In this document: positions 2,506 to 16,524 of the stretch, piece by piece | Layout: each line of letters starts with the position of its first letter | Position numbering within the stretch: position 1 is the first letter of the stretch | NCBI GenBank assembly: GCA_016742275.1 | Contig: JACVCD010000001.1 | Span: 124,001-188,000 of the forward strand | Direction of reading: 5' to 3' | Origin: Gemmatimonadaceae bacterium | GTDB lineage: Bacteria > Gemmatimonadota > Gemmatimonadetes > Gemmatimonadales > Gemmatimonadaceae | DNA: 64,000 bases | Program-made: the position numbers and the translations under genes | The notes under the pieces: generated by a model | What the model saw: the letters and a program-made list of their open reading frames with translations, nothing else | What the model was told of the DNA's origin: nothing | Database searches by the model: none

Positions 2506-4176
2506 TCAGGGAAGACCGTAGGTACCGCGAACGGCACCACCCGGCAGACCGACACCACCCATGTTGGTGTACGGCGTCACGCGCGTCTGGCGCTCACCCC
2601 AGGGTACCGGGAAGTGCACCGGCGTTCCCTCGGGCAGATCGCCCCAGCCGCGCATATCGAAGTACCACGCGCCATAGCTGATGTACGACATCTCCATGCG
2701 CTTCTCCCACTTCATCGCTTCCAGGATGTTGCCGCAGCGCGTGGTGAACGTACCAGCGTTGTACACCGGAATACGTGGCACACAGGCGTTGCCACCCGGG
2801 ACGGCCGTGTTGAGATCCGCAATGCCTGCAAGCGCCGGCAATCCGCCGCGGCTCACACGCGAGTTGTTGATCATCGTGATGGCCAACGGGAAGTTGTTCG
2901 TGCGAATGGCACCTTCTGCAATCAGGCCCCAGATCTCGGGCATGACCATGTGCGGGAAGTTGCCGATACGCGCAGCGTTCTGGAACGGCTGGAATCGCGC
3001 GTGATCGTACCACGAGAAGCCCCAGGTGCCGTCGGCTGCCGCGCCATCGTTGGCAGTCAGACGATTGCGGTAGTACACACCGGCGGGAAGTGCGGCACCG
3101 GTCGCGCCACCATTGGAGTTGGCGTTCTGAGTCGCACGATCGTTGCCCGCCGGGAAGCGCTTGTCCACCGTGCGAATCAGGAACGGTGAGCGATTGAGCA
3201 ACGGCTGATTGAGCCAGGCTTCGTACTGCGTACCAACGCTATCCGCCATACCGATGATCATCGGCGTCATCACGTGCCAGTTGCTGCCCGTGAAGTGATT
3301 GGGAACCCAAGCCTGGGTCCAACCGGTCGTCGCGTTCATCACGATTTCGATATCGGCTGTGATACCGGCTTGTGCATCGGTGATGACCTGCTGCCAGTTG
3401 ACTGCCGCACGCTCCGCTGGTGTCCGAGCGACTTCCGCACGGAAACGCGCGCGGTAGGATCGGATGATGCGCTGGAACAGATCGGCCGACACGTTGCCCA
3501 CCGACAGGTTCATCCAGCTAGCCGGCAGTGGGAAGCCGCCGGTTCCTGCCGCTGCCGAATTGCTGGCGTCGGCGAGGGCATCATCCAGCAGGCCGATCGC
3601 GACCTTCATGACCGAGTCGTAGCCCACGAGCGGTGGAATTGCTTCACCACCCGGAACCACGACGGCTGCGGAATCATACGACAGGGCAAGATTGCCCAGC
3701 ATCAACGCCAGACCGAAACGTCCAAAGGAACGTGCCCGGAGATCCTGCGCCGGACTGCCGAGCGTAAAGCCGGTGGTGGCAAGCCGCTCGAGCGCAATGG
3801 TTACGGATCGGGACGCACGCGAGAGACCGTTGAAGTTGCTCGATACCGAAGCCGTTCCCGGATTGTTCGGGAAATTGAGCAGCGGTGTGCGCGGCAATCC
3901 GCCACGCGGTCCCATGTTGTAGTTGGCCAGACCGGTGTAGTTCTCGAGCGCCATGACCTGCATGGAGCTATTCAGGCTCTCGACGTTGCCACCAGTGGTA
4001 CCGCCCACTGCCTGGTTGAAGCCACCGGCAATGAGATTTTCGACGTCGCTTGGCCGACCCAGCGTACGCAGAATGTCCGCGTTGTTGGGATTGGTGACGG
4101 CCAAGTCCGTGCTGCACGCGGCGAGTGACAGGGTCGACACGCCGGCCAGCAGCATGATACGGGAAAGATGTCGCAT
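2506..4176 (-). CDS. SusD/RagB-like outer-membrane nutrient-binding lipoprotein
   Basis: The chosen start (MRHLSRIMLL) gives a lipoprotein signal ending in LAACS; an upstream in-frame start at 4221 would add 15 residues before it. The mature protein begins 'TDLAVTNPNNADI', the usual SusD opening, then has an alpha-helical TPR-like body. The C-terminal 'MKWEKRMEMSYISYGAWYFDMRGWG' region (split here only for reference) matches the SusD/RagB ending, where E-RR-E/K-M-E and 'WYFDMRRWG'-type motifs are typical. About 556 aa, normal size. It lies directly downstream of susC, as the SusC lid partner. Substrate unknown: no glycoside hydrolase or peptidase neighbours. Confidence 0.92.
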   Translation of the reverse strand: MRHLSRIMLLAGVSTLSLAACSTDLAVTNPNNADILRTLGRPSDVENLIAGGFNQAVGGTTGGNVESLNSSMQVMALENYTGLANYNMGPRGGLPRTPLLNFPNNPGTASVSSNFNGLSRASRSVTIALERLATTGFTLGSPAQDLRARSFGRFGLALMLGNLALSYDSAAVVVPGGEAIPPLVGYDSVMKVAIGLLDDALADASNSAAAGTGGFPLPASWMNLSVGNVSADLFQRIIRSYRARFRAEVARTPAERAAVNWQQVITDAQAGITADIEIVMNATTGWTQAWVPNHFTGSNWHVMTPMIIGMADSVGTQYEAWLNQPLLNRSPFLIRTVDKRFPAGNDRATQNANSNGGATGAALPAGVYYRNRLTANDGAAADGTWGFSWYDHARFQPFQNAARIGNFPHMVMPEIWGLIAEGAIRTNNFPLAITMINNSRVSRGGLPALAGIADLNTAVPGGNACVPRIPVYNAGTFTTRCGNILEAMKWEKRMEMSYISYGAWYFDMRGWGDLPEGTPVHFPVPWGERQTRVTPYTNMGGVGLPGGAVRGTYGLP

Positions 4177-8176: not shown

Positions 8177-8875
8177 TTATCGTCTCCGCAGGCCCGCCGG
8201 CGTCCAGGTAAAGCCCACTGCCAACGTCTCGTCGCTTCCCACGATATCAGAGCCACTAAACGAGGCCGCCACTCGCACGGCAAACTTGCGATTCACCTGC
8301 CAGTTCGCACCGAGATCGAAGTTGAGGCTCGCCGTCACATCGCTGTCATCGTCACGTCGGCAGCTGCCGCAGGCGTCGAGCGAGATGCGCGGATGCACAA
8401 AGGGCGTCAACGACATGCCTTCATCGAGATTGAAGGTGTGGCCCATGCTCACACCAACCGGGATACGGAAGGCCGAGGCATTGCCGCCAAGCGACACACC
8501 GGCACCCGCGGTGAGCAGCAGATCGAGTGGCTGGTCGCCATTGGCCCGCGCGAGCTCCTTACCCAGGCTTCCTCCGACAAAAAGCAGCGGATCCTGACGT
8601 CCCTTCGGGTCGGACATGCCGGCGTCGAGCTGGAAGTGCATGCCGCGGCCAGCGCCCTCACGCCACTGGAAGAGCAATGTGGTACCTGCTCCACCAACAA
8701 TCGCCGCGGTATAGTCGCGTTCACTCGATGTCGGGACCTGCATGGCCGGATAGTTCCAGGCCTGGGCCCCGAGGGAGGAGGCGGACACTGTGGTCAGCGA
8801 AAGGACGGCGGCTGCGAACGCGGCTGCGAACGCCGATGCGTTCCGGATGGGACGCCAGCGTGAGGATGTCTGCAT
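8177..8875 (-). CDS. Probable outer-membrane beta-barrel protein, 232 aa
   Basis: The start at 8875 (MQTSSRWRPIRN) gives a signal peptide ending in SLGAQAW; 19 further in-frame codons upstream are considered untranslated. The mature part alternates hydrophobic and polar residues ('LLFQWREG', 'FQLDAGMS', 'LDLLLTAGAGVSLGG', 'FAVRVAASFSG'), as in small outer-membrane barrels of roughly eight strands. 'ACGSCRRDDD' carries a CxxC in a loop. It is monocistronic: its own terminator follows and the gene upstream is divergent. Family unassigned; function unknown. Confidence 0.7.
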   Translation of the reverse strand: MQTSSRWRPIRNASAFAAAFAAAVLSLTTVSASSLGAQAWNYPAMQVPTSSERDYTAAIVGGAGTTLLFQWREGAGRGMHFQLDAGMSDPKGRQDPLLFVGGSLGKELARANGDQPLDLLLTAGAGVSLGGNASAFRIPVGVSMGHTFNLDEGMSLTPFVHPRISLDACGSCRRDDDSDVTASLNFDLGANWQVNRKFAVRVAASFSGSDIVGSDETLAVGFTWTPAGLRRR

Positions 8876-9017
8876 GAACACTCCGGGTTGTGACAAAAGT
8901 CGCGCACGGATGGATTTCGTGCACCTGCGCATTCTACGTGATCACTCCCCGTCGGTTCCATGGCCTTTCATCACATTCGGCGTGTCGGGGATCACGATTC
9001 GGAATTATTTTTTCTTC

Positions 9018-11291
9018 GTGTCCCGCCCCTCTCTCGCGGCCTTCCCCTCAAGGCTGCTCTCTGCCGCCCTGTTCGTTTTGGCGAGCGGAGCTCCAGCTCC
9101 GGTGTTCGCGCAGCAGGATGCGGTGCAACCGCCGCCTCGTGCTGCCACCCGCATTCCAACCGATGCGCTGGTGCGTGACGCCCGATCGTTAGCCGATCGC
9201 GGTGACACCACGGCTGCGCTCGAATTGCTTGAGCGCGCCACCGATCAATCACCACGTGATGCCGAAGCATTGTACTGGCGTGGGATGATGCTGATGCGGC
9301 AGTCGCAGTTGAATGTGAGCGATGCGGCGGATCGATTCATCGCCTCGCGTCTGCTCAAGCGCGCGGCCGATCTCGATGGCACCAATCCGCGCTATCAGCT
9401 CGCTCTTGGCCGATTGCTGCTGCGGTCACCTCTGCAGCGTGTACAAGCGGAGCGCCACTTCCGAAAGGCGCTCAGTATTGCCGGCGCGTCACGCGACACC
9501 AATGAGATCGTGGAAGCGACGCGCGAACTCGGAGAAGTGAAGCGCCGCCGGTATCTTACGGGACGCGATCGGCGACTGTACACGACATCCAACACCTTCG
9601 ACCCCAATCAGGCGCTCATCCGCCTGCACTACACGCGCGAGTTTCTCGAACAGTTGTCGATTCCGGTGCAGGAGTCCGGCAACACGGATCGCTTTGAAGC
9701 GGAAGAATACTTTCGCCAGGCGCTGCGATTCCGCGCCGATGATGTGCGCAGCGTAGTCGCGTTGCTTGGCATTCTGTATGACCAGAAGCGCCTCGACGAA
9801 ATGCTGGCGTTGGTGCGCAGCACGGTAGCGGCCAATCCCGCCGGAGCCGTGGCCGCCAACGCTCGCCCCTTTTTCGCGGCTGGACTGGCGGCATTCCGCT
9901 TGGGCCGCGTAGCGGAAGCAGACAGCCTGTTCAACCAGGCGCTTGCACGATTGCTACCGGCCGAGCGCATCGAGATGCTCGAGCTTGGGCGCATACTGCG
10001 TGTCGGAGATTCCGTTCGTGTGGCCGGGCTTTCGCCTGAAGAGCGCGCCAGAACGGACAGTGCATATTGGGAGGCCGCCGATCCATTGCTGGCCACCCCG
10101 CAGAACGAAGCGCGGCTCGAGTACCTATCCCGCATGGCGTACGCTGATCTCGAGTTCACCGACGAAGACACGCGTCAGGCCGGGTGGCGGACCGATCGTG
10201 CCATGATTCTCGCGCGCTATGGCGAGCCACCTGTCATTGCGACTTTCTCACCACAGGTCAACATCGATGCACGAGATGCCATTGGCCGGGTGATCACGGT
10301 GTGGTTCTATCCGCGTGCGGAGGTGGATTTCGTTTTTACCGGTCCACCGGCGTTCAACTACGCATACTTTGCCGGGAACTACCGGGATCACGCGCGTGCG
10401 CAGCGTGAAGTGAATCCATTTGCACTCGAGAATCTCGCGCTGGCCATGCGCACCGATACCATTCCTGTGCAGATGGCGCGGTTTCGCGGCATCGACGCCA
10501 CACAAATGGAAGTGGTCGTGGCTGGTGCGGTTCCGGTGCACCGCTTGTACGCCGGTGCCCCTCTTGAACAAGGCAGTCTCGAACTGCAAGTACGCGCCGG
10601 ACTCGCGGGGCAGCTTGCGCTGATCAGCTCAGACACCGCGCGTGTTGCACTGCCAGTGGCAGGCTCGCTTGCGAGGCAGTGGGTGCGCAATCTGCCCGCT
10701 CGCGACGGCCGCCTGCGACTCGAGGCCTTTGATGACGATCTCGAGATGGTGGGAGCGCGCGCACAATTGGATTTGCCCGCCCTGCGCACCGACAGCATGA
10801 CCATTGCGCGCTCGCTGGTCTCCAGCGACTTGCTCATGGCGCATCGCGTGGAACCGCCCATGCGCATGGCGCGTTGGTCATCCATTGGTGTGCGCCCTCT
10901 CGGCGACCTGCGAATCGCACCGCGCGATACGTTCAGTGTGTATTGGGAACTCTATGGGCTCACGCCGGACAACCAGCAGCGTTTGCGCTACGATGTGGAA
11001 GTTCAGGTCACCATCCTGTCACTCGATCGCGGCGCGGACCCCTTGGCGCGTTTCTTCGGTGGCGTGGCCGATCTGGTGGGCGTATCCGCAGTAGGCGAAG
11101 ACAAGCTCGCCCTCAAGTTCAGCAGAGAAGAGCCCGCAAGCAGCGCCACCGTGGTTCGGCAGCCGGAACTCCTGACCTTGGGGCTTGGTACATCTCCCGC
11201 GGGACGGTACCGATTGACCGTCTCCGTCACGGATAAAGCTTCCGGCCGTGTCGCGACGTCTCACCGTGATTTTTCAATTGCCCGCCCCTGA
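9018..11291 (+). CDS. TPR and GWxTD domain-containing secreted protein, ~757 aa
   Basis: A GTG at 9018 (VSRPSLAAFPSRLL) is chosen because it starts a good signal peptide ending PVFAQQ. The frame is open further upstream and the true start is uncertain. Residues ~45-330 are helical repeats of TPR type ('AALELLERATDQSPRDAEALYWRG', quoted in part). The GWxTD motif is GWRTD at residues 389-393, followed by 'ILARYGEPP', the characteristic core of the GWxTD domain, which is found in a few phyla and has no proven function. Beta-rich segments follow. The next gene starts 10 nt downstream, so the two form an operon. No membrane anchor is visible apart from the signal. Confidence 0.82.
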   Translation: MSRPSLAAFPSRLLSAALFVLASGAPAPVFAQQDAVQPPPRAATRIPTDALVRDARSLADRGDTTAALELLERATDQSPRDAEALYWRGMMLMRQSQLNVSDAADRFIASRLLKRAADLDGTNPRYQLALGRLLLRSPLQRVQAERHFRKALSIAGASRDTNEIVEATRELGEVKRRRYLTGRDRRLYTTSNTFDPNQALIRLHYTREFLEQLSIPVQESGNTDRFEAEEYFRQALRFRADDVRSVVALLGILYDQKRLDEMLALVRSTVAANPAGAVAANARPFFAAGLAAFRLGRVAEADSLFNQALARLLPAERIEMLELGRILRVGDSVRVAGLSPEERARTDSAYWEAADPLLATPQNEARLEYLSRMAYADLEFTDEDTRQAGWRTDRAMILARYGEPPVIATFSPQVNIDARDAIGRVITVWFYPRAEVDFVFTGPPAFNYAYFAGNYRDHARAQREVNPFALENLALAMRTDTIPVQMARFRGIDATQMEVVVAGAVPVHRLYAGAPLEQGSLELQVRAGLAGQLALISSDTARVALPVAGSLARQWVRNLPARDGRLRLEAFDDDLEMVGARAQLDLPALRTDSMTIARSLVSSDLLMAHRVEPPMRMARWSSIGVRPLGDLRIAPRDTFSVYWELYGLTPDNQQRLRYDVEVQVTILSLDRGADPLARFFGGVADLVGVSAVGEDKLALKFSREEPASSATVVRQPELLTLGLGTSPAGRYRLTVSVTDKASGRVATSHRDFSIARP

Positions 11292-11301
11292 GGCCACTGA
11301 C

Positions 11302-12558
11302 ATGTCCACCGACCGCCCCTCGCTGTCCATTCGCCTCCTGTGCTGTCTGCTGGCAGGAACCGGCTCGCTGATTGCCTCACAGGCAACAGATCTGGAGGCA
11401 CAAGGTGGTCCGCCAGCCGGAATGCAGCGCGCCGAGGTTGTCACACGCACAACCATGGGTCGGGTGAATGGGTCGCGACTCATCAAGTACACAACACTTG
11501 GCGCGGCAGGTGGTGCGGGTATGGCCATGGGCTACTGGGCCTTGAGCGATCAAGGCATGCGAGGAAATAGTTGCGAGCCACTCAACTGCGCGCTGCCCTA
11601 TCTCACCATCACTGGTGCACTGGCTGGACTCTTTCTGGCGCGCGAACTCGAAGCGCAGCGCATTGCCCTCACTCCGCGCGAAGGTGCGATCGCAAAATTT
11701 GCCACGACGGAAATAGCATTGATTACGCCGCCGACCTGGGTCGAGGCGAATGATTCACTGTTGTTCGTTGCGGGTGACAGCGGCGTACAGGTCATTTCCA
11801 GCCGAAACGCCAAGCCGTCTGCCGTCGCTCGTCGAGCCGCGGGCTTGCGTGCCGTTCGCCAGGTGGTGTTGGTGCCCGAGCGCAACGTGTTGTCCATTGG
11901 TACGGCCACCGCACTTTGGGAAACTCCCGTGATGACCGGTGCCGCTCGTCGTGTGGGAGATGGCGGCATCTCGGCGCTGGCCTCCAATGCGCGGAGTGTG
12001 CTCAGTGCGAGCGGAGACATGGTGCGATTGCAGCGTGGCATTGAGGGCGAGAGTGCCATCACGGATTCACTCCGCGTGGGCGCCACTGTTGGCGCTGCAG
12101 CCTGGGATGCGCGCGATCAGCATTGGTGGGTAGCAACAGATTCGTCACTCATTCGCGTGACCCAATCGGCTTCTGGATTGACCTTGGGAGCCAAACTATC
12201 AATACCAGCCGGTGCTCGCGGTCTGACGATTGGTGCCAACTACGTGGTCGTGGTGTTGGGTGATGCCGGCATTGTGGCGTTCCCACGCGCTTCGCTTTCC
12301 AGTGCGGACGCGGGTGGTGTGATTTCGCCGCTCCGACTGGTGGGTGAGCCGCGGTTTGCATTCGATGCCGACTTCCTCGGCGACACACTATACGTGGCAG
12401 GCGGCGTTGACGGTGTGTTTCGCGTTGCGCTGTCCCCTGATGCACGCATCATCGATTCCAGTCGTCAATTCCCATTTGCCACGCTGATCCGCAATCAAGG
12501 CGGACAGATCTGGGTTGGTGATCGCGGCCGGCAGGAGATGGTGCGGATTGATCGGTAG
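11302..12558 (+). CDS. Secreted propeller-like repeat protein, 418 aa
   Basis: The ATG at 11302 (MSTDRPSLSIRLL) lies 10 nt after the GWxTD gene stop. A signal-like hydrophobic stretch is followed by two more membrane-like segments ('TLGAAGGAGMAMGYWAL', 'YLTITGALAGLFLA'). From residue ~135 on, short repeats such as 'VWVATDSSL', 'NYVVVVLGDAGIVAF', 'DTLYVAGGVDGVFRV' and 'GQIWVGDRGR' look like blades of a beta-propeller (LVIVD/NHL-like). No catalytic motif is visible. The pairing with a GWxTD protein suggests a joint envelope function, which is inference. Confidence 0.65.
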   Translation: MSTDRPSLSIRLLCCLLAGTGSLIASQATDLEAQGGPPAGMQRAEVVTRTTMGRVNGSRLIKYTTLGAAGGAGMAMGYWALSDQGMRGNSCEPLNCALPYLTITGALAGLFLARELEAQRIALTPREGAIAKFATTEIALITPPTWVEANDSLLFVAGDSGVQVISSRNAKPSAVARRAAGLRAVRQVVLVPERNVLSIGTATALWETPVMTGAARRVGDGGISALASNARSVLSASGDMVRLQRGIEGESAITDSLRVGATVGAAAWDARDQHWWVATDSSLIRVTQSASGLTLGAKLSIPAGARGLTIGANYVVVVLGDAGIVAFPRASLSSADAGGVISPLRLVGEPRFAFDADFLGDTLYVAGGVDGVFRVALSPDARIIDSSRQFPFATLIRNQGGQIWVGDRGRQEMVRIDR

Positions 12559-12572
12559 TCTCGGAGCCATTG

Positions 12573-12601
12573 GCGGGGGAACGTCTTCTTCTTTCCCCCG
12601 C
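12573..12601 (+). terminator. Hairpin terminator between convergent genes
   Basis: GCGGGGGAA and TTCCCCCGC form a 9-bp stem around an 11-nt pyrimidine-rich loop, 15 nt after the propeller-like gene and 30 nt before the convergent thioredoxin stop. The T-tract is weak. Confidence 0.55.
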
Positions 12602-12631
12602 TTGACTCGTTCAAGACGCAATTGCCGTTAT

Positions 12632-13219
12632 CTATTGAGCTGAGGCTGTAGGTTCTCTGTTTGATCGTGAGATAAATCCTTTGTTGAATCGATTGAGAAC
12701 CCTAACAATCGAATCGCGCGGCGTAACGCCAAGTGCGGAGTATACGACCACCCCACGCGGGTTCAGAATCGCTACTTGAGGTACGAGAGCCGCGCGGAGC
12801 TGTGACGCCAGCCTGCCAGAATCAATAACCGCAATCGGCATTTTTACACGATTTTTCAGTGCCCACTCTTCAACATCAGTATGTGGGGAGGCTGCTACCG
12901 CAATCGGTTTAAAAATGCTTCGCCCTTCAAGTGAGTCCGCCAGCGATTTCCAGTCCGGAAGGAGCGCGGCGCATTTTGGACAAGTTGTAGTCAGTACAAA
13001 GACCAAACGAAGACTATCCTTGGGTCCCGAAGAGATATCCACGGAATCACCATGCAGCAGCGGAAGGTGCGCCGATGCGATTGTCGCTCCTGGTGCCATC
13101 GATAGTGCAAGGGCCCTTCGATACTGATTCTCCGTACGAAGCCGGCGAATCGTGAAACCTTCAATGACAACTGTAACGAGCGCCAGAAACAGGCAGCCTA
13201 CTATCAGAGAAATTTTCAT
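12632..13219 (-). CDS. Membrane-anchored thioredoxin-like protein, CPKC active site (copy 1)
   Basis: 195 aa. An N-terminal membrane segment (residues ~3-20, uncleaved-anchor type, few basic residues before it) is followed by a TlpA/redoxin-like thioredoxin domain. The active site is CPKC at residues 80-83 in 'TTTCPKCAALLPDWKSL', and a cis-Pro equivalent lies in 'ALVPQVAIL'. The domain therefore faces the periplasm, where such proteins reduce or isomerise disulfides. It lies 95 nt downstream of a small secreted eight-Cys peptide gene and is a diverged paralogue of the thioredoxin at 14041. The likely job, inferred from linkage, is disulfide handling of these peptides. Confidence 0.85.
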   Translation of the reverse strand: MKISLIVGCLFLALVTVVIEGFTIRRLRTENQYRRALALSMAPGATIASAHLPLLHGDSVDISSGPKDSLRLVFVLTTTCPKCAALLPDWKSLADSLEGRSIFKPIAVAASPHTDVEEWALKNRVKMPIAVIDSGRLASQLRAALVPQVAILNPRGVVVYSALGVTPRDSIVRVLNRFNKGFISRSNREPTASAQ

Positions 13220-13314
13220 ACGTCGAGCCTTGATTGAAGTTGAAGCAGGTGCTCGTCTGCGGCGGCACGAGCTACATATACACGCTTGTCAAACTCTGAA
13301 AAATTATGTCCGGA

Positions 13315-13590
13315 TCACTGCGGAGCGTAAATACAGTTGCACCAACCGTTCCCAGATTGGGGATCGGGCGAATAGCAATACCCCCCAATGACCAATTCAG
13401 GATTGGGATCACTATTCAGACAGCATTCGTAACAGAGTCCCGGTGCTTCAGGAAGCATGGGATTGCAGATAAATGTACCTTCCTCAGTACAAATGGTACT
13501 GGATGCGGCCCATGCACTAGTCGCGCCAAACGATATTGCAGCTATCGAAACGATGACCGTTGCTAACACGCCAAGCTTTTTGATGTTCAT
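13315..13590 (-). CDS. Small secreted eight-cysteine peptide (pep1), 91 aa
   Basis: A strong ribosome binding site (GGAGGAG, three bases before the ATG) precedes MNIKKLGVL and a signal peptide ending SAWAA. The mature ~62 residues hold eight cysteines spaced C-x7-C-x10-C-x2-CC-x14-C-x11-C-x-C. The two paralogous peptides nearby have the same order of spacings (six to seven, nine to ten, two, zero, nine to fourteen, eleven to fourteen, one), although sequence identity to them is low. This looks like a disulfide-stabilised secreted mini-protein. I know no matching named family. The thioredoxin gene downstream is probably co-transcribed. Confidence 0.8.
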   Translation of the reverse strand: MNIKKLGVLATVIVSIAAISFGATSAWAASSTICTEEGTFICNPMLPEAPGLCYECCLNSDPNPELVIGGYCYSPDPQSGNGWCNCIYAPQ

Positions 13591-13702
13591 AAACTCCTCC
13601 GAAGTTCAAGGATTCACTCGCCGCAGACGAGCACTAAGACTGAAATTTCGCCGAGATTTCGGTGCGTGAACGACTATGCACATCATTGTGATGCAGGAAA
13701 AC

Positions 13703-13732
13703 GAGGGCACCCTGTTTTGATAGGGTGCCCTC
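13703..13732 (-). terminator. Intrinsic terminator of trx2-pep2
   Basis: A perfect 11-bp stem, GAGGGCACCCT / AGGGTGCCCTC, with an eight-base loop. In the minus-strand direction it is followed by GTTTTCC. It starts 9 nt after the pep2 stop. Confidence 0.8.
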
Positions 13733-13740
13733 GCCATTTC

Positions 13741-14007
13741 TCAGGGGCTCCCGCAGATGCAACCCTGTGGGTAGAACGGTGGCAGATCCTCGTCGTAGAA
13801 TGAACAGAACGACGACTGGTTATCTACCGTCCCGCAGCAAGCCTGGCAATTGTCGTTTCCACCACGCGATTCAGCGCACCAATTCCCCGTGGTAGGGCAG
13901 TCTGACTCAACAAGTGCGCTTCGTGACTGCGCCGCCTGCACCACACCAACGCCGAGTGTGAGAGCTGCCGTTACGGCAATGAATGAGTTGATCAGCCGTT
14001 TCATCAT
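13741..14007 (-). CDS. Small secreted eight-cysteine peptide (pep2), 88 aa
   Basis: An AGGAGA ribosome binding site precedes two tandem ATGs (MMKRLINS). The signal peptide ends VVQAAQ, near residue 26. The mature part has eight cysteines spaced C-x6-C-x9-C-x2-CC-x9-C-x14-C-x-C, including 'NWCAES', 'CQACCG' and a terminal 'CICGSP'. Acidic overall. It lies 33 nt downstream of the thioredoxin gene trx2 and ahead of a terminator, so trx2-pep2 is a two-gene operon. The last ~20 residues are nearly identical to pep3 while the rest differs much more. Function unknown; candidates are a bacteriocin-like toxin, an extracellular structural peptide or a ligand-binding knottin-like protein. Confidence 0.85.
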   Translation of the reverse strand: MMKRLINSFIAVTAALTLGVGVVQAAQSRSALVESDCPTTGNWCAESRGGNDNCQACCGTVDNQSSFCSFYDEDLPPFYPQGCICGSP

Positions 14008-14040
14008 TGGAGCATCTCCTGTTGGGGATGGCCATCACGC

Positions 14041-14649
14041 CTATCGTGATGCCGAGCCGGCAGCGGTGAGCATTGAATCCGCTGCCGCCGCACGAAACGC
14101 GGCGGAATACAGTGAGTCCACCGTACTGCGTTCCGTGACAGCTTGTACATGCACATACTCAACTCGACCAAAGCGATCGAGAATGACAGTCAGGGGAACA
14201 ACACGTGCCTTGAGCACCATTGGCATCTTGGTATCCACGAATTGGCCAATTGCATAGTTCAGGTTGTGCTTTGCAGCATATGATGCCGTGGAATCCCAAT
14301 TACTTCCGGTAATCCAAATGACATCGAATCGGCTCCGCTGGTCTTTCATCAAAGAGTCGCTCATGCTTTTCCAAGCGGGCAGCGATGCGAGGCAATACGG
14401 ACAAGTCGTGCGAAAGAAGATCACGACCTGCGCACGACCTGATGTTGTCTCTCCGATCGTGAGACTGTCGCCCTTTTCGGTAACAAGGTTGGTGCGCGGA
14501 AACCACTGCCCGATATGCGGGAATGACCGCATTCGCCTAGCCTGTGCTTGATAGGGCTTGAGCGCCTGTACTTCAACGCTCAGCACACCTACCAGAACAA
14601 CAGCCACCACCAAAAGGACCTGAAGAACACGTGTGCCACGGTCGGCCAT
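14041..14649 (-). CDS. Membrane-anchored thioredoxin-like protein, CPYC active site (trx2)
   Basis: 202 aa. A GAGGGAG ribosome binding site precedes MADRGTRVLQ. A membrane anchor spans residues ~8-28, then a short helical linker, then a TlpA-type thioredoxin domain with CPYC at residues 83-86 and a cis-Pro equivalent in 'RVVPLTVIL'. CPYC is the glutaredoxin-type dithiol, suggesting a different redox potential from the CPKC paralogue. A promoter (TTGACG-17-GATATT) lies just upstream. The eight-Cys peptide pep2 follows after 33 nt. A truncated copy of its 3' end occurs at 15181-15296, showing that the trx-pep unit was duplicated in tandem. Confidence 0.87.
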   Translation of the reverse strand: MADRGTRVLQVLLVVAVVLVGVLSVEVQALKPYQAQARRMRSFPHIGQWFPRTNLVTEKGDSLTIGETTSGRAQVVIFFRTTCPYCLASLPAWKSMSDSLMKDQRSRFDVIWITGSNWDSTASYAAKHNLNYAIGQFVDTKMPMVLKARVVPLTVILDRFGRVEYVHVQAVTERSTVDSLYSAAFRAAAADSMLTAAGSASR

Positions 14650-14710
14650 GACTCCCTCACCTTTCGGACTTCACATCAAACAATCGACGAATGGTCGTGA
14701 AACTTTTGCG

Positions 14711-14739
14711 AATATCCGACCCAGTACCGTCAACGTCAA
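14711..14739 (-). promoter_or_regulatory. Predicted promoter of trx2-pep2
   Basis: Minus-strand TTGACG, 17-bp spacer, GATATT. The leader to the trx2 ATG would be about 55 nt. A bulged inverted repeat (CTGAGAGAGTC / GACTCTCAG, 14758-14783) lies just upstream and could be the end of the pep3 transcript or an operator. Confidence 0.5.
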
Positions 14740-14835
14740 GTACAATGTCATCCAACACTGAGAGAGTCCGAATTGACTCTCAGTAGATTGTGTGAAATAC
14801 AAGGCTGCGTGGGGCGCGCTCGAGAGTCGGTAAGG

Positions 14836-14874
14836 AATGGCGAGGGCACCCGGGTATCGGGAACCCTCGCCATT
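14836..14874 (-). terminator. Hairpin after pep3
   Basis: AATGGCGAGGG pairs perfectly with CCCTCGCCATT, directly after the pep3 stop. It is homologous to the pep2 terminator, so it belongs to the duplicated unit. The following T-tract is poor. Confidence 0.6.
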
Positions 14875-14879
14875 TTCCC

Positions 14880-15146
14880 TCAGAGACTTCCGCAGATGCA
14901 ACCCTGCGGATAGAACGGCGGAAGATCCTCGTCATAGAATGAACAGTACGACGACATGTTTTCCATCGTCCCGCAGCAGGCGTTGCAATTGTATTCGCCA
15001 CCACTGGAGCCCGCGCACCAGTTTCCGACCTCAGGGCAATAAGGATCAGCAAGCGCAGTTCGCGCCTGCGCTGCCTGCACTACACCCACTCCGAGTGTGA
15101 GCGCTGCGGTTACGGTAATAATTGAGTTGATCAGCCGTTTCATCAT
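14880..15146 (-). CDS. Small secreted eight-cysteine peptide (pep3), 88 aa
   Basis: Paralogue of pep2: same tandem-ATG start (MMKRLINS), signal peptide (VVQAAQ) and cysteine spacing C-x6-C-x9-C-x2-CC-x9-C-x14-C-x-C. The segment from the sixth cysteine to the eighth is identical to pep2, while the first half of the mature peptide differs at many positions, with the cysteines and 'GNWCA' kept. Its partner thioredoxin has been lost: only the last ~116 bp of a thioredoxin gene remain upstream. It must be expressed from a promoter in 15150-15350 that I could not define. Confidence 0.83.
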   Translation of the reverse strand: MMKRLINSIITVTAALTLGVGVVQAAQARTALADPYCPEVGNWCAGSSGGEYNCNACCGTMENMSSYCSFYDEDLPPFYPQGCICGSL

Positions 15147-15180
15147 TGAAGCATCTCCTGTTAGGGGATGGCCATCACGC

Positions 15181-15296
15181 CTATCGTGATGGCGAGCCGA
15201 CAGTGGTGATCATTGAATCCACTACCGTCGCACGGAACGCGGTGGAATAGAGTGAATCCACCATAATTGGTTCCGTGACAGCTTGTACATGCACAT
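15181..15296 (-). pseudogene. Truncated 3' remnant of a thioredoxin gene (third copy)
   Basis: About 100 of 116 positions match the 3' end of trx2 (14041-14156), in the same frame, ending in the same TAG. It reads 'VHVQAVTEPIMVDSLYSTAFRA' against 'VHVQAVTERSTVDSLYSAAFRA' (compare in 20-residue halves). Homology stops abruptly at 15296; the catalytic CxxC part is gone. It lies 34 nt upstream of pep3, the same spacing as trx2-pep2, so it is the scar of a duplicated trx-pep cassette. Confidence 0.8.
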
Positions 15297-15359
15297 CTCA
15301 AATAGAACGAAGCGATGCAGATTTCTTCTCACTGGCGGTCTTCTTGAAATAAAAGAGAA

Positions 15360-15389
15360 ACGGTCCGGGGCTATGAGCGCCCGGACCGT
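15360..15389 (-). terminator. Bidirectional intrinsic terminator after the PorV operon
   Basis: ACGGTCCGGG / CCCGGACCGT stem with a 10-nt loop. Minus-strand continuation is TTTCTCTTTTATTTC, plus-strand continuation TCTTTT. It closes the long operon that starts at 26159. Confidence 0.85.
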
Positions 15390-15414
15390 TCTTTTCACAA
15401 CAATGTTGCCCGCT

Positions 15415-16524
15415 TTATCGCCCGCGCATACTCGGCGGCAAAGCAGCCTGCATGATGATGCCCGCACCCATCCGGCCTTCAGGTGCGGCCTTACTCTGCA
15501 ACGTCACGTTGACAAAACCAAACTCCTTGAGCGGACGCTCAGCCGGGCCAAGCGAGCTACGATCGGAGATCGTATCCAGCTTCACGCGCTGATTCATCGC
15601 CACAATCACGTTGTTGAGTGAAAGTGCCGCATCAGCATCGGCATTGAAATACGTTGCGCGCTCGGGAGCCGGTCCCGTGCGTGCGCCCATGTACAGGGTG
15701 TCGATCGGACGATTCGAAAGCGAATCCACCTTGACGCCGTACATGGCGTAGTAGTAGCCAACCGGCGGACGGAAGTAATTCGAATCGATGGCCACCACGA
15801 CGCCTTCGCGAATTTCCATACGACCACGGGGGGTCAGAACTGGATTGGCCACAAACCCTGGTGAAGCACCGCTCAGTGCATAGACGTACTGCGCTGCAAC
15901 GCTGCGTGCCCAGGTGCCAAACCGGATGGCCGCCACGCTCGATGTCGCATCGGTGAAACGCGCCCACACGCTGCGGATATTACCCGGAGCGGTACCAACA
16001 GCGGCCGTTTCAGTGGATACGATGATCAAACCGATGGAGTCCGTGTTCACGAGTCCCGTCTGACCAGCACGGAACGCGCGAAACCGTACGCGAATGTTCG
16101 AGCCGCCAACGCCCCACCCGCTCACACCCGTGCGGTTCGTTGTCGTCGTCGAAAACACCAGATCGCCAGCCTGATTTTGCGTCGTGTCCACGCGCGTGAC
16201 GGCAAGATCGCCAGTCAAGCGCACGAACTTGGTGCCAGAATCGTTGGCTGCCCACACCACGTACTGTGCACCGGCAGCGAGCGTGTCAGCCGTCAGCATC
16301 TCGACCACGATCGAATCCGAGGCCGGAGTAGCAGAAGCCAGACGGCCAGCCACAGGGAAGCGGATGCTGCCACGTGGCACGTTGGCAGCCGCAGGCTTCG
16401 CGAACAACGTGCCGTAGCCGTAACCGCCACCAGGATCCGTGGTGATGGAGCGCGTGTCTTCACACGCCATCAGCGACACCGCCGCCAACGTACCCAGGAA
16501 CAGCTTCTTCGTCGTCTTCATCAT
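15415..16524 (-). CDS. Hypothetical lipoprotein, 369 aa (last gene of PorV operon)
   Basis: The start MMKTTKKLFLG leads into a lipoprotein signal ending SLMACED, then a Gly/Tyr-rich tether ('PGGGYGYG'). The body consists of two or three beta-rich repeats with similar openings ('ASDSIVVEMLTADTLAAGAQYVVW', 'VAAIRFGTWARSVAAQYVYAL', cited in part), which look like Ig- or anti-sigma-type sandwich domains. Its ATG shares one base with the stop of the barrel gene upstream (TGATG). No named family recognised. Position suggests an outer-membrane accessory to the TonB/PorV system. Confidence 0.75.
   Translation of the reverse strand: MMKTTKKLFLGTLAAVSLMACEDTRSITTDPGGGYGYGTLFAKPAAANVPRGSIRFPVAGRLASATPASDSIVVEMLTADTLAAGAQYVVWAANDSGTKFVRLTGDLAVTRVDTTQNQAGDLVFSTTTTNRTGVSGWGVGGSNIRVRFRAFRAGQTGLVNTDSIGLIIVSTETAAVGTAPGNIRSVWARFTDATSSVAAIRFGTWARSVAAQYVYALSGASPGFVANPVLTPRGRMEIREGVVVAIDSNYFRPPVGYYYAMYGVKVDSLSNRPIDTLYMGARTGPAPERATYFNADADAALSLNNVIVAMNQRVKLDTISDRSSLGPAERPLKEFGFVNVTLQSKAAPEGRMGAGIIMQAALPPSMRGR

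Follow-up and report, generated by a model that had tools for sequence, protein, structure and literature searches.

Bacteriocins of the pediocin and sublancin type come from Gram-positive bacteria, are exported by ABC transporters and contain few disulfides. Their operons encode a dedicated thiol-disulfide enzyme together with the disulfide peptide, PedC for pediocin and BdbB for sublancin, according to passages in PMC4919988 and PMC9148482 and, for sublancin, in PMC4336743. Bacterial cis-defensins are small secreted peptides with the cysteine order C..CxxxC..C..CxC, a gamma-core GxC and a CS-alpha/beta fold, and some carry a fourth disulfide (PMC11561630; actifensin, PMC6989792). Five classes from three named phyla, mostly Proteobacteria, have been described, and Gemmatimonadota are not among these phyla (PMC11561630). 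Neither a thioredoxin partner nor a link to TonB or DUF4876 proteins is described for them (PMC11561630; PMC6989792). In the MauD/MauE system (TIGR02661, PF07291), a membrane-anchored TlpA-type protein serves a disulfide-rich small protein of the periplasm. MauD/MauE homologues beside cysteine-rich precursors have already been proposed by decRiPPter, as candidate Streptomyces families with precursors of at least eight cysteines (PMC7794033). However, these families are actinobacterial, and the parts of that paper on which this comparison by description is based mention no defensin framework.

The locus compared here lies in a 64,000-nucleotide stretch of DNA from a Gemmatimonadaceae bacterium (the window). 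It probably encodes mini-proteins of the CS-alpha/beta (cis-defensin-like) kind that are secreted and locked by disulfides, together with a dedicated membrane-anchored folding thioredoxin. Such a cassette would extend CS-alpha/beta defensin-like peptides to Gemmatimonadota, for which literature searches for defensin-like peptides returned nothing relevant, and would add a dedicated thioredoxin to them. It would also offer a bacterial test case for the origin of eukaryotic defensins and, for mini-proteins with four disulfides, a candidate catalyst of oxidative folding.

Organization of the cassette

The actual unit is the whole 2.9-kb insert (12559..15414) between two convergent genes at 11248-12558 (plus strand) and 15415-16524 (minus strand). 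The flanking genes adjoin without the insert in most congeners (at least 14, e.g. L093 and L094), and the GC content is 52.7% in the insert vs. 60.9% in the window. Three peptide genes and two thioredoxin genes are contained in the insert, all on the minus strand. The genes pepA (14880..15146) and pepB (13741..14007), assigned from their open reading frames and homology, encode 88-residue precursors with 77% identity, each with a putative signal peptide followed by an eight-cysteine mini-protein of the type here called type A. The 91-residue precursor encoded by pepC (13315..13590) has the same cysteine order with longer loops and was assigned from its open reading frame and a type-A profile, with which it scores 57 bits (the profile includes pepC). 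Both thioredoxin genes encode N-terminally anchored proteins with a thioredoxin fold: trxB (14041..14649; CPYC; Pfam Redoxin, 2.5e-8) lies 33 bp upstream of pepB, and trxA (12632..13219; CPKC; Pfam AhpC-TSA, 9.6e-7) lies 95 bp downstream of pepC. At most homologous loci the peptide is directly downstream of its thioredoxin; pepC is upstream of trxA.

A 480-bp segment that contains the trxB 3' end and pepB (13702-14177) recurs on the minus strand at 14841-15316 with 82% identity (blastn, E 3e-134). A trx 3'-terminal remnant (about 15180-15316, minus strand, detected by blastn) thus lies upstream of pepA. The first-pass annotation had stated that each peptide is or was next to a thioredoxin, and the two intact genes together with this remnant of a third bear it out. 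Comparison of pepA with pepB gave a dN/dS of about 0.21, indicating purifying selection and therefore real peptide genes. Directly 3' of pepB, a GC-rich hairpin followed by TTTTCC (13702..13737, minus strand) looks terminator-like on inspection of the sequence; a consensus terminator scan did not flag it. The Rfam search gave no match and the promoter scan gave matches at chance level. No immunity gene or dedicated ABC exporter was found within the cassette.

Cysteine framework and fold

The cysteine spacing is C-6-C-9-C-2-CC-9-C-14-C-1-C in pepA and pepB and C-7-C-10-C-2-CC-14-C-11-C-1-C in pepC, confirming the earlier report of three genes with apparent signal peptides and one eight-cysteine order. 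Among the window ORFs, only these three matched a loose eight-cysteine pattern. On inspection, their leaders show a basic n-region, a hydrophobic stretch and an AxA-like end. None of the window peptides reached the cutoff of a Pfam or NCBIfam family. The first-pass annotation had matched this spacing to no named family. However, the order is that of the four-disulfide version of the CS-alpha/beta framework seen in chlorotoxin and the short insectotoxins (Pfam Toxin_5), and most homologues fit the bacterial cis-defensin pattern (PMC11561630).

That published CS-alpha/beta pattern, CX(2,18)CX3CX(2,12)CX(4,17)CXC in a precursor of 30-130 residues (PMC11561630), fits 46 of the 53 homologues (shuffled mean 1.4), and GxC is present in 48 of them (shuffled mean 31). 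In the window, pepA and pepB match the pattern and pepC misses it by loop length; pepC carries the gamma-core GxC, and pepA and pepB have SxC instead. The leader is conserved across the homologues (40% identity, with a motif near L-x-F-G-x3-A-x-A), and the mature part is variable (13% identity outside the cysteines). Against the PDB, the leading matches of a profile of the second type of homologue (type B) were without exception scorpion KTx or defensin chains, the best at 8e-5, and one homologue exceeded the Pfam Arthropod defensin cutoff (25.7 vs. 20.4 bits). Structure prediction, which had been proposed for these peptides, gave a beta-alpha-beta-beta model for the type-B peptide of L175 (AlphaFold, pLDDT 83). 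The best matches of this model in a VIA search were all CS-alpha/beta structures (Z 5.2, r.m.s.d. 1.4 over 38 residues). The model of pepA had low confidence (pLDDT 47.5), too poor for a fold search.

Eight of the nine PDB matches of the type-A profile are chlorotoxin-type, all at weak E-values of 0.096-3.5, and the CxxCC order is unlike that of any of the five cis-defensin classes as described. However, the type-A peptides have longer loops, are acidic and stay below the Toxin_5 cutoff (PF05294; E 0.095 for the best-scoring type-A member), and no common ancestry is claimed. Compared profile to profile, types A and B showed no significant similarity. In shuffle-controlled comparisons, a bridge to type B was found only for the short intermediates of G132, G166, G293 and G022 and not for the window peptides, whose scores with the type-B core profile did not exceed those of shuffles. 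The window type-A peptides may nevertheless adopt the CS-alpha/beta fold.

The CxC, CC and CxxC motifs, with iron-linked neighbours at some loci, would also suit periplasmic metallothionein-like peptides whose cysteines bind metal and are kept reduced by the thioredoxin. This is unlikely, since the spacing, including CxxxC, GxC and CxC, is that of CS-alpha/beta peptides, the fold predicted for the type-B member is that of a defensin, and the peptide would be exported to an oxidising compartment. The cysteine number is also even, 6 or 8 in 52 of the 53 peptides, the remaining one having four.

Linkage of peptides and thioredoxins across the class

The linkage was surveyed in 394 genomes of the class. 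Full-length members of the partner-thioredoxin subfamily score at least 90 bits, compared with at most 75 for generic TlpAs. With linkage profiles built from linked examples, 24 of the 29 subfamily genes have a peptide gene within 1.6 kb, which in 20 cases lies directly downstream in the same orientation. Of the remaining five, one lies at a contig end and four are solo genes, whose genomes have 4-11 peptides at other sites. None of ten sampled generic TlpA loci has such a peptide. The genome co-occurrence is 21/2/5/366 (Fisher about 4e-28, uncorrected for relatedness). The peptide-thioredoxin linkage noticed in the window is thus confirmed, and it is found again throughout the class.

A patchy distribution, statistics that do not correct for relatedness and the many unlinked copies in one family would be expected if a few related genomes had acquired the linkage by accident and the peptide and thioredoxin were functionally unbound. 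However, the pairing is kept in several families of the class, with divergent thioredoxins and with both type-A and type-B peptides, and the window and G022 have a pair at the same site although their thioredoxins are only 30% identical. An accident is therefore highly improbable. The unlinked copies belong to the Longimicrobium-like genomes, which have 4-11 peptide paralogues, mostly unlinked, in addition to the thioredoxin. A predominance of peptides without thioredoxin neighbours had been named beforehand as evidence against the pairing; it holds for this family only, whose near-complete genomes still encode the thioredoxin, away from the peptides.

Relatives of the window genes occur in G012, where the pepA homologue is 53% identical over 76 residues and the partner thioredoxin is 47% identical to trxB. 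The narrow type-A profile A3 found only the window and G012 across the class, with chance-like matches below them. In the genome contigs, a scan with trxB alone retrieved no relatives and the A7 scan retrieved six loci. Types A and B have the leader and the thioredoxin partner in common, and type A has the chlorotoxin-like cysteine order.

Neighbouring genes and possible roles

Recurring neighbours in 26 loci are a TonB receptor (13/26), a DUF4876 lipoprotein (12/26) and a DUF6850-type barrel (9/26). Many peptides are thus tied to an outer-membrane uptake module in which the lipoprotein (DUF4876) and the barrel (DUF6850) are of no known function. The first-pass annotation had suggested a self-contained system. 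This goes too far, given the additional module at about half of the loci and the unlinked paralogues of one family. The same protein families form the TonB-DUF4876 clusters of Bacteroidota, and in P. gingivalis and B. thetaiotaomicron these clusters rank with the genes most strongly repressed by iron (PMC10434189).

These shared loci and the iron repression are consistent with the peptides being secreted ligand carriers (for metal, haem or siderophore), with the lipoprotein, barrel and receptor importing the loaded peptide or its ligand. This tentative carrier role also draws on the DUF4876-positive genomes of the class, 7 of 12 of which are thioredoxin/peptide genomes compared with about 26 of 394 overall. 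However, the other five have no member of the thioredoxin family, the Bacteroidota clusters as listed in PMC10434189 contain neither thioredoxin nor peptide, and the module was not seen beside the Longimicrobium-like loci. The uptake link cannot hold throughout, since no DUF4876 gene was found in the window genome.

A positive charge is usual for antimicrobial defensins. A role of the peptides as defensin-type bacteriocins or toxins that are folded by the thioredoxin and released against competitors would accord with the CS-alpha/beta framework, the venom-like combination of conserved leader and variable mature part, the tandem arrays and the 4-11 paralogues in one family, and an active defensin from bacteria is known in actifensin (PMC6989792). 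However, 43 of the 53 peptides have a negative net charge (mean -2.8), pepA and pepB are under purifying selection, and no immunity gene or dedicated exporter recurs among the neighbours of homologous loci. The last point also separates the cassette from the PedC and BdbB operons, whose peptides are unrelated. A toxin role is therefore somewhat doubtful. Because the peptides are acidic and lack conserved immunity and exporter neighbours, a binding role at the cell surface, with a ligand or a partner as the target and with a tie to TonB uptake in many species, is favoured over membrane killing and is put forward as possible. It is more speculative that the acidic defensin-fold mini-protein, folded by its private thioredoxin, could be the secreted partner of iron-regulated TonB/DUF4876/DUF6850 uptake and serve nutrient capture rather than killing, with venom-like diversification in the Longimicrobium-like genomes.

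Partner thioredoxins and proposed folding pathway

Both trxA and trxB have a single N-terminal hydrophobic helix. Their active sites, TTCPKC in trxA and TTCPYC in trxB, differ from the WCxPC of TlpA/ResA, and in the thioredoxin tree the generic WCxxC TlpAs group in a supported clade of their own. The position of trxA in the tree is unsure; it scores 90.5 bits with the partner-thioredoxin profile A6, which excludes it. In the proposed pathway, Sec would export the peptide by its conserved leader, and the thioredoxin, facing the periplasm, would form or proof-read the four disulfides by analogy with MauD. MauD is presumed to act in this way on the small subunit of methylamine dehydrogenase, which is rich in cysteines. 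Once folded, the acidic peptide would act at one of three sites, the periplasm, the outer membrane or the cell exterior. The thioredoxin would thus have a catalytic relation to the peptide. However, loss of a catalytic cysteine is seen in some partner thioredoxins (CLHS and CEYS in G275, CPFS in G238, one or none in G132), and simple dithiol catalysis therefore cannot apply to all of them. The cassette encodes no enzyme for reoxidising the thioredoxin.

In NCBIfam, several partner thioredoxins match MauD best or nearly best, and the MauD features of an N-terminal anchor and a thioredoxin fold with CPxC are shared by trxA and trxB. However, the partner thioredoxins score at most 43.4 bits against a cutoff of 188.6 bits (trxB, 40.5 bits, E 1.9e-10, far below it), mau genes are absent, and the Gemmatimonadota cassettes contain no MauE, for which the window genome gave only matches below cutoff. 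In the Ignavibacteria locus L178, genes for MauE, a thioredoxin and a cysteine-rich secreted peptide lie in a row.

Organization and genomic site of the cassette

The cassette consists of five genes on the minus strand, encoding predicted secreted mini-proteins (pep) and predicted membrane-anchored thioredoxins (trx). In transcription order they are pepA (15146-14880), trxB (14649-14041, active site CPYC), pepB (14007-13741), pepC (13590-13315) and trxA (13219-12632, CPKC). The pepA, pepB and pepC products share eight cysteines in a single order. pepA and pepB originated from duplication of a 480-bp segment that includes the end of trxB, leaving a trx relic upstream of pepA; their differences are mainly synonymous (dN/dS ~0.21). 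Thus, the cysteine order, the two motifs and the duplication with its relic show that the first-pass annotation accurately described three eight-cysteine peptide genes clustered with CPYC and CPKC thioredoxins, and that a peptide gene indeed "is or was" beside a thioredoxin.

At least 14 congeners, among them G001 (~79% identity), have the convergent flanking genes (11248-12558, plus strand; 15415-16524, minus strand) directly adjacent, with neither thioredoxin nor peptide between them. The insert (12559-15414) has a GC content of 52.7% versus 60.9% for the window. G022 carries a thioredoxin-peptide pair adjoining the same flanking gene, and G012 has a related pair at a different site, with a DUF4876-like lipoprotein gene between its two genes. 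From these sequence comparisons, the cassette looks to have been repeatedly gained or lost. The lipoprotein-like gene 15415-16524, with no Pfam family assigned, is kept genus-wide beside 11248-12558 and 8790-11291 (a GWxTD/TPR protein); the cassette occupies the gap separating it from 11248-12558.

Class-wide pairing of peptides and thioredoxins

Across the class, 394 genomes were searched with a partner-thioredoxin profile and the matches rescored with the profile A6, which gives 90-286 bits for the full-length partner subfamily versus at most 75 bits for generic TlpAs. The search found 26 loci with 29 partner genes. The pairing, proposed in the first-pass annotation for a co-occurrence check, recurs across the class: a Cys-rich secreted peptide lies within 1.6 kb of 24 of the 29 genes, and immediately downstream on the same strand in 20; two of the matches counted (L150, L162) are weak or truncated. 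The unlinked genes number five, namely one at a contig end (G056, which has a peptide at the start of another contig, adjoining DUF4876) and four solo genes, whose host genomes have 4-11 peptides elsewhere. At the genome level, 23 genomes have the subfamily, and a profile-detected peptide is present in 21 of them versus 5 of the 371 other genomes (Fisher's test, 4e-28, ignoring kinship among genomes and with profiles seeded from linked loci). Three of the latter five genomes are 61-76% complete; G086 has a thioredoxin that is a divergent subfamily member, and G385 is a marginal match. The peptide-thioredoxin system is real and widespread.

In one Longimicrobium-like genome (G273), five paralogous peptides with six cysteines each and near-alike leaders are encoded in tandem (L218 184-1704). 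Close to a solo partner thioredoxin, L148 encodes a Cys-rich peptide (3459-3842, minus strand) with a lanthipeptide-like leader (KLELEKLQVETF). The solo thioredoxins of Longimicrobium-like genomes (L146, L148, L149) have as common neighbours a membrane protein starting MFGLEILDVILGLVF and a metallo-hydrolase-like protein. At other loci, generic TlpA-type thioredoxins adjoin small secreted proteins with six cysteines (L173 6558-7029, L138 1011-1523, L141 1883-2089, L164 1445-1792), perhaps a second, unrelated pairing.

Peptide layouts and fold

The homologues have two cysteine layouts. Type B, which is defensin-like, follows C..C-x5-C-x3-C..GxC..CC-x-C; some forms do not have the extra pair and keep six cysteines. 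Every leading PDB match of its profile is a scorpion potassium-channel toxin or a defensin (best 8e-5), and one member exceeds the Pfam arthropod defensin cutoff. The AlphaFold model of a type-B member is beta-alpha-beta-beta (pLDDT 83) and matches CS-alpha/beta chains with Z up to 5.2 and an r.m.s.d. of 1.4 over 38 residues; such middling Z values are insufficient alone, and all matches listed belong to this cystine-rich fold class. The CS-alpha/beta nature of type B is well supported.

Type A, the window's layout (C-x-C-x-C-x2-CC-x-C-x-C-x-C), has the cysteine order of chlorotoxin and short insectotoxins, which account for 8 of 9 PDB matches of its profile, all weak (0.096-3.5). The type-B core scores of short type-A members (G132, G166, G293, G022) beat most shuffles (for G132, 0 of 500 shuffles scored as high). 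None of the window peptides scored above shuffles against this core profile, and the type-A link therefore rests on the leader and partner family that both types share, on intermediates and on cysteine order. Mean identity is 40% in the leaders, owing in part to hydrophobic composition, and 13% in the mature parts outside cysteines. The published CS-alpha/beta regular expression fits 46 of 53 peptides versus 1.4 in shuffled sequences. The window's type-A peptides are probably also CS-alpha/beta in nature.

The partner thioredoxin

The partner thioredoxin has a single N-terminal helix and a TlpA/MauD-like domain, without tryptophan before the active site and with V-P at the cis-proline position, features that presumably place it nearer oxidising DsbA-type proteins than reducing TlpAs. 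The simplest reading, for which MauD, PedC and BdbB are precedents, is that it would form or edit the peptide disulfides; a folding partnership is likely. Some partners have CxxS or no active-site cysteines; in the species concerned, the thioredoxin may edit, hold or chaperone instead of acting as a catalyst. Type-A and type-B partners are intermixed in the thioredoxin tree, where the placement of trxA is unsure.

One or both active-site cysteines are gone (CLHS, CEYS, CPFS, none) from partners in L160 (6460-7167, 9159-9758), L161 (5790-6506, 12040-12720) and L162 (386-961), and a stop interrupts one of these thioredoxins. No cysteine of the eight is missing from the peptides that accompany them.

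Neighbouring putative uptake genes and related systems

When neighbour genes were clustered, three families recurred. A TonB receptor that carries a carboxypeptidase-regulatory domain occurs at 13 loci, a count that excludes a different receptor located elsewhere in the window, further along. A DUF4876/lamin-tail lipoprotein occurs at 12 loci and a DUF6850-type barrel at 9. DUF4876 was not found in searches of the window genome, one of them run without a positive control, indicating that the cassette can occur independently of this module. Iron or haem strongly represses the DUF4876-TonB clusters of Bacteroidota (PMC10434189, PMC10470040).

Bacterial cis-defensins are on record in Proteobacteria, Acidobacteria and Actinobacteria (PMC11561630, PMC6989792). 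Relative to the literature examined, the Gemmatimonadota peptide family and its close tie to one thioredoxin subfamily seem new, as do the expansion of peptide paralogues and the association with the TonB/DUF4876/DUF6850 module. Streptomyces MauE/MauD homologues have been described adjoining precursors with at least eight cysteines (PMC7794033). In Ignavibacteria, L178 (7388-8724) consecutively encodes MauE (PF07291, 5.9e-18), a thioredoxin resembling the partners (CSFC) and a secreted peptide with ~15 cysteines, possibly tying the peptide-thioredoxin system to MauE/MauD.
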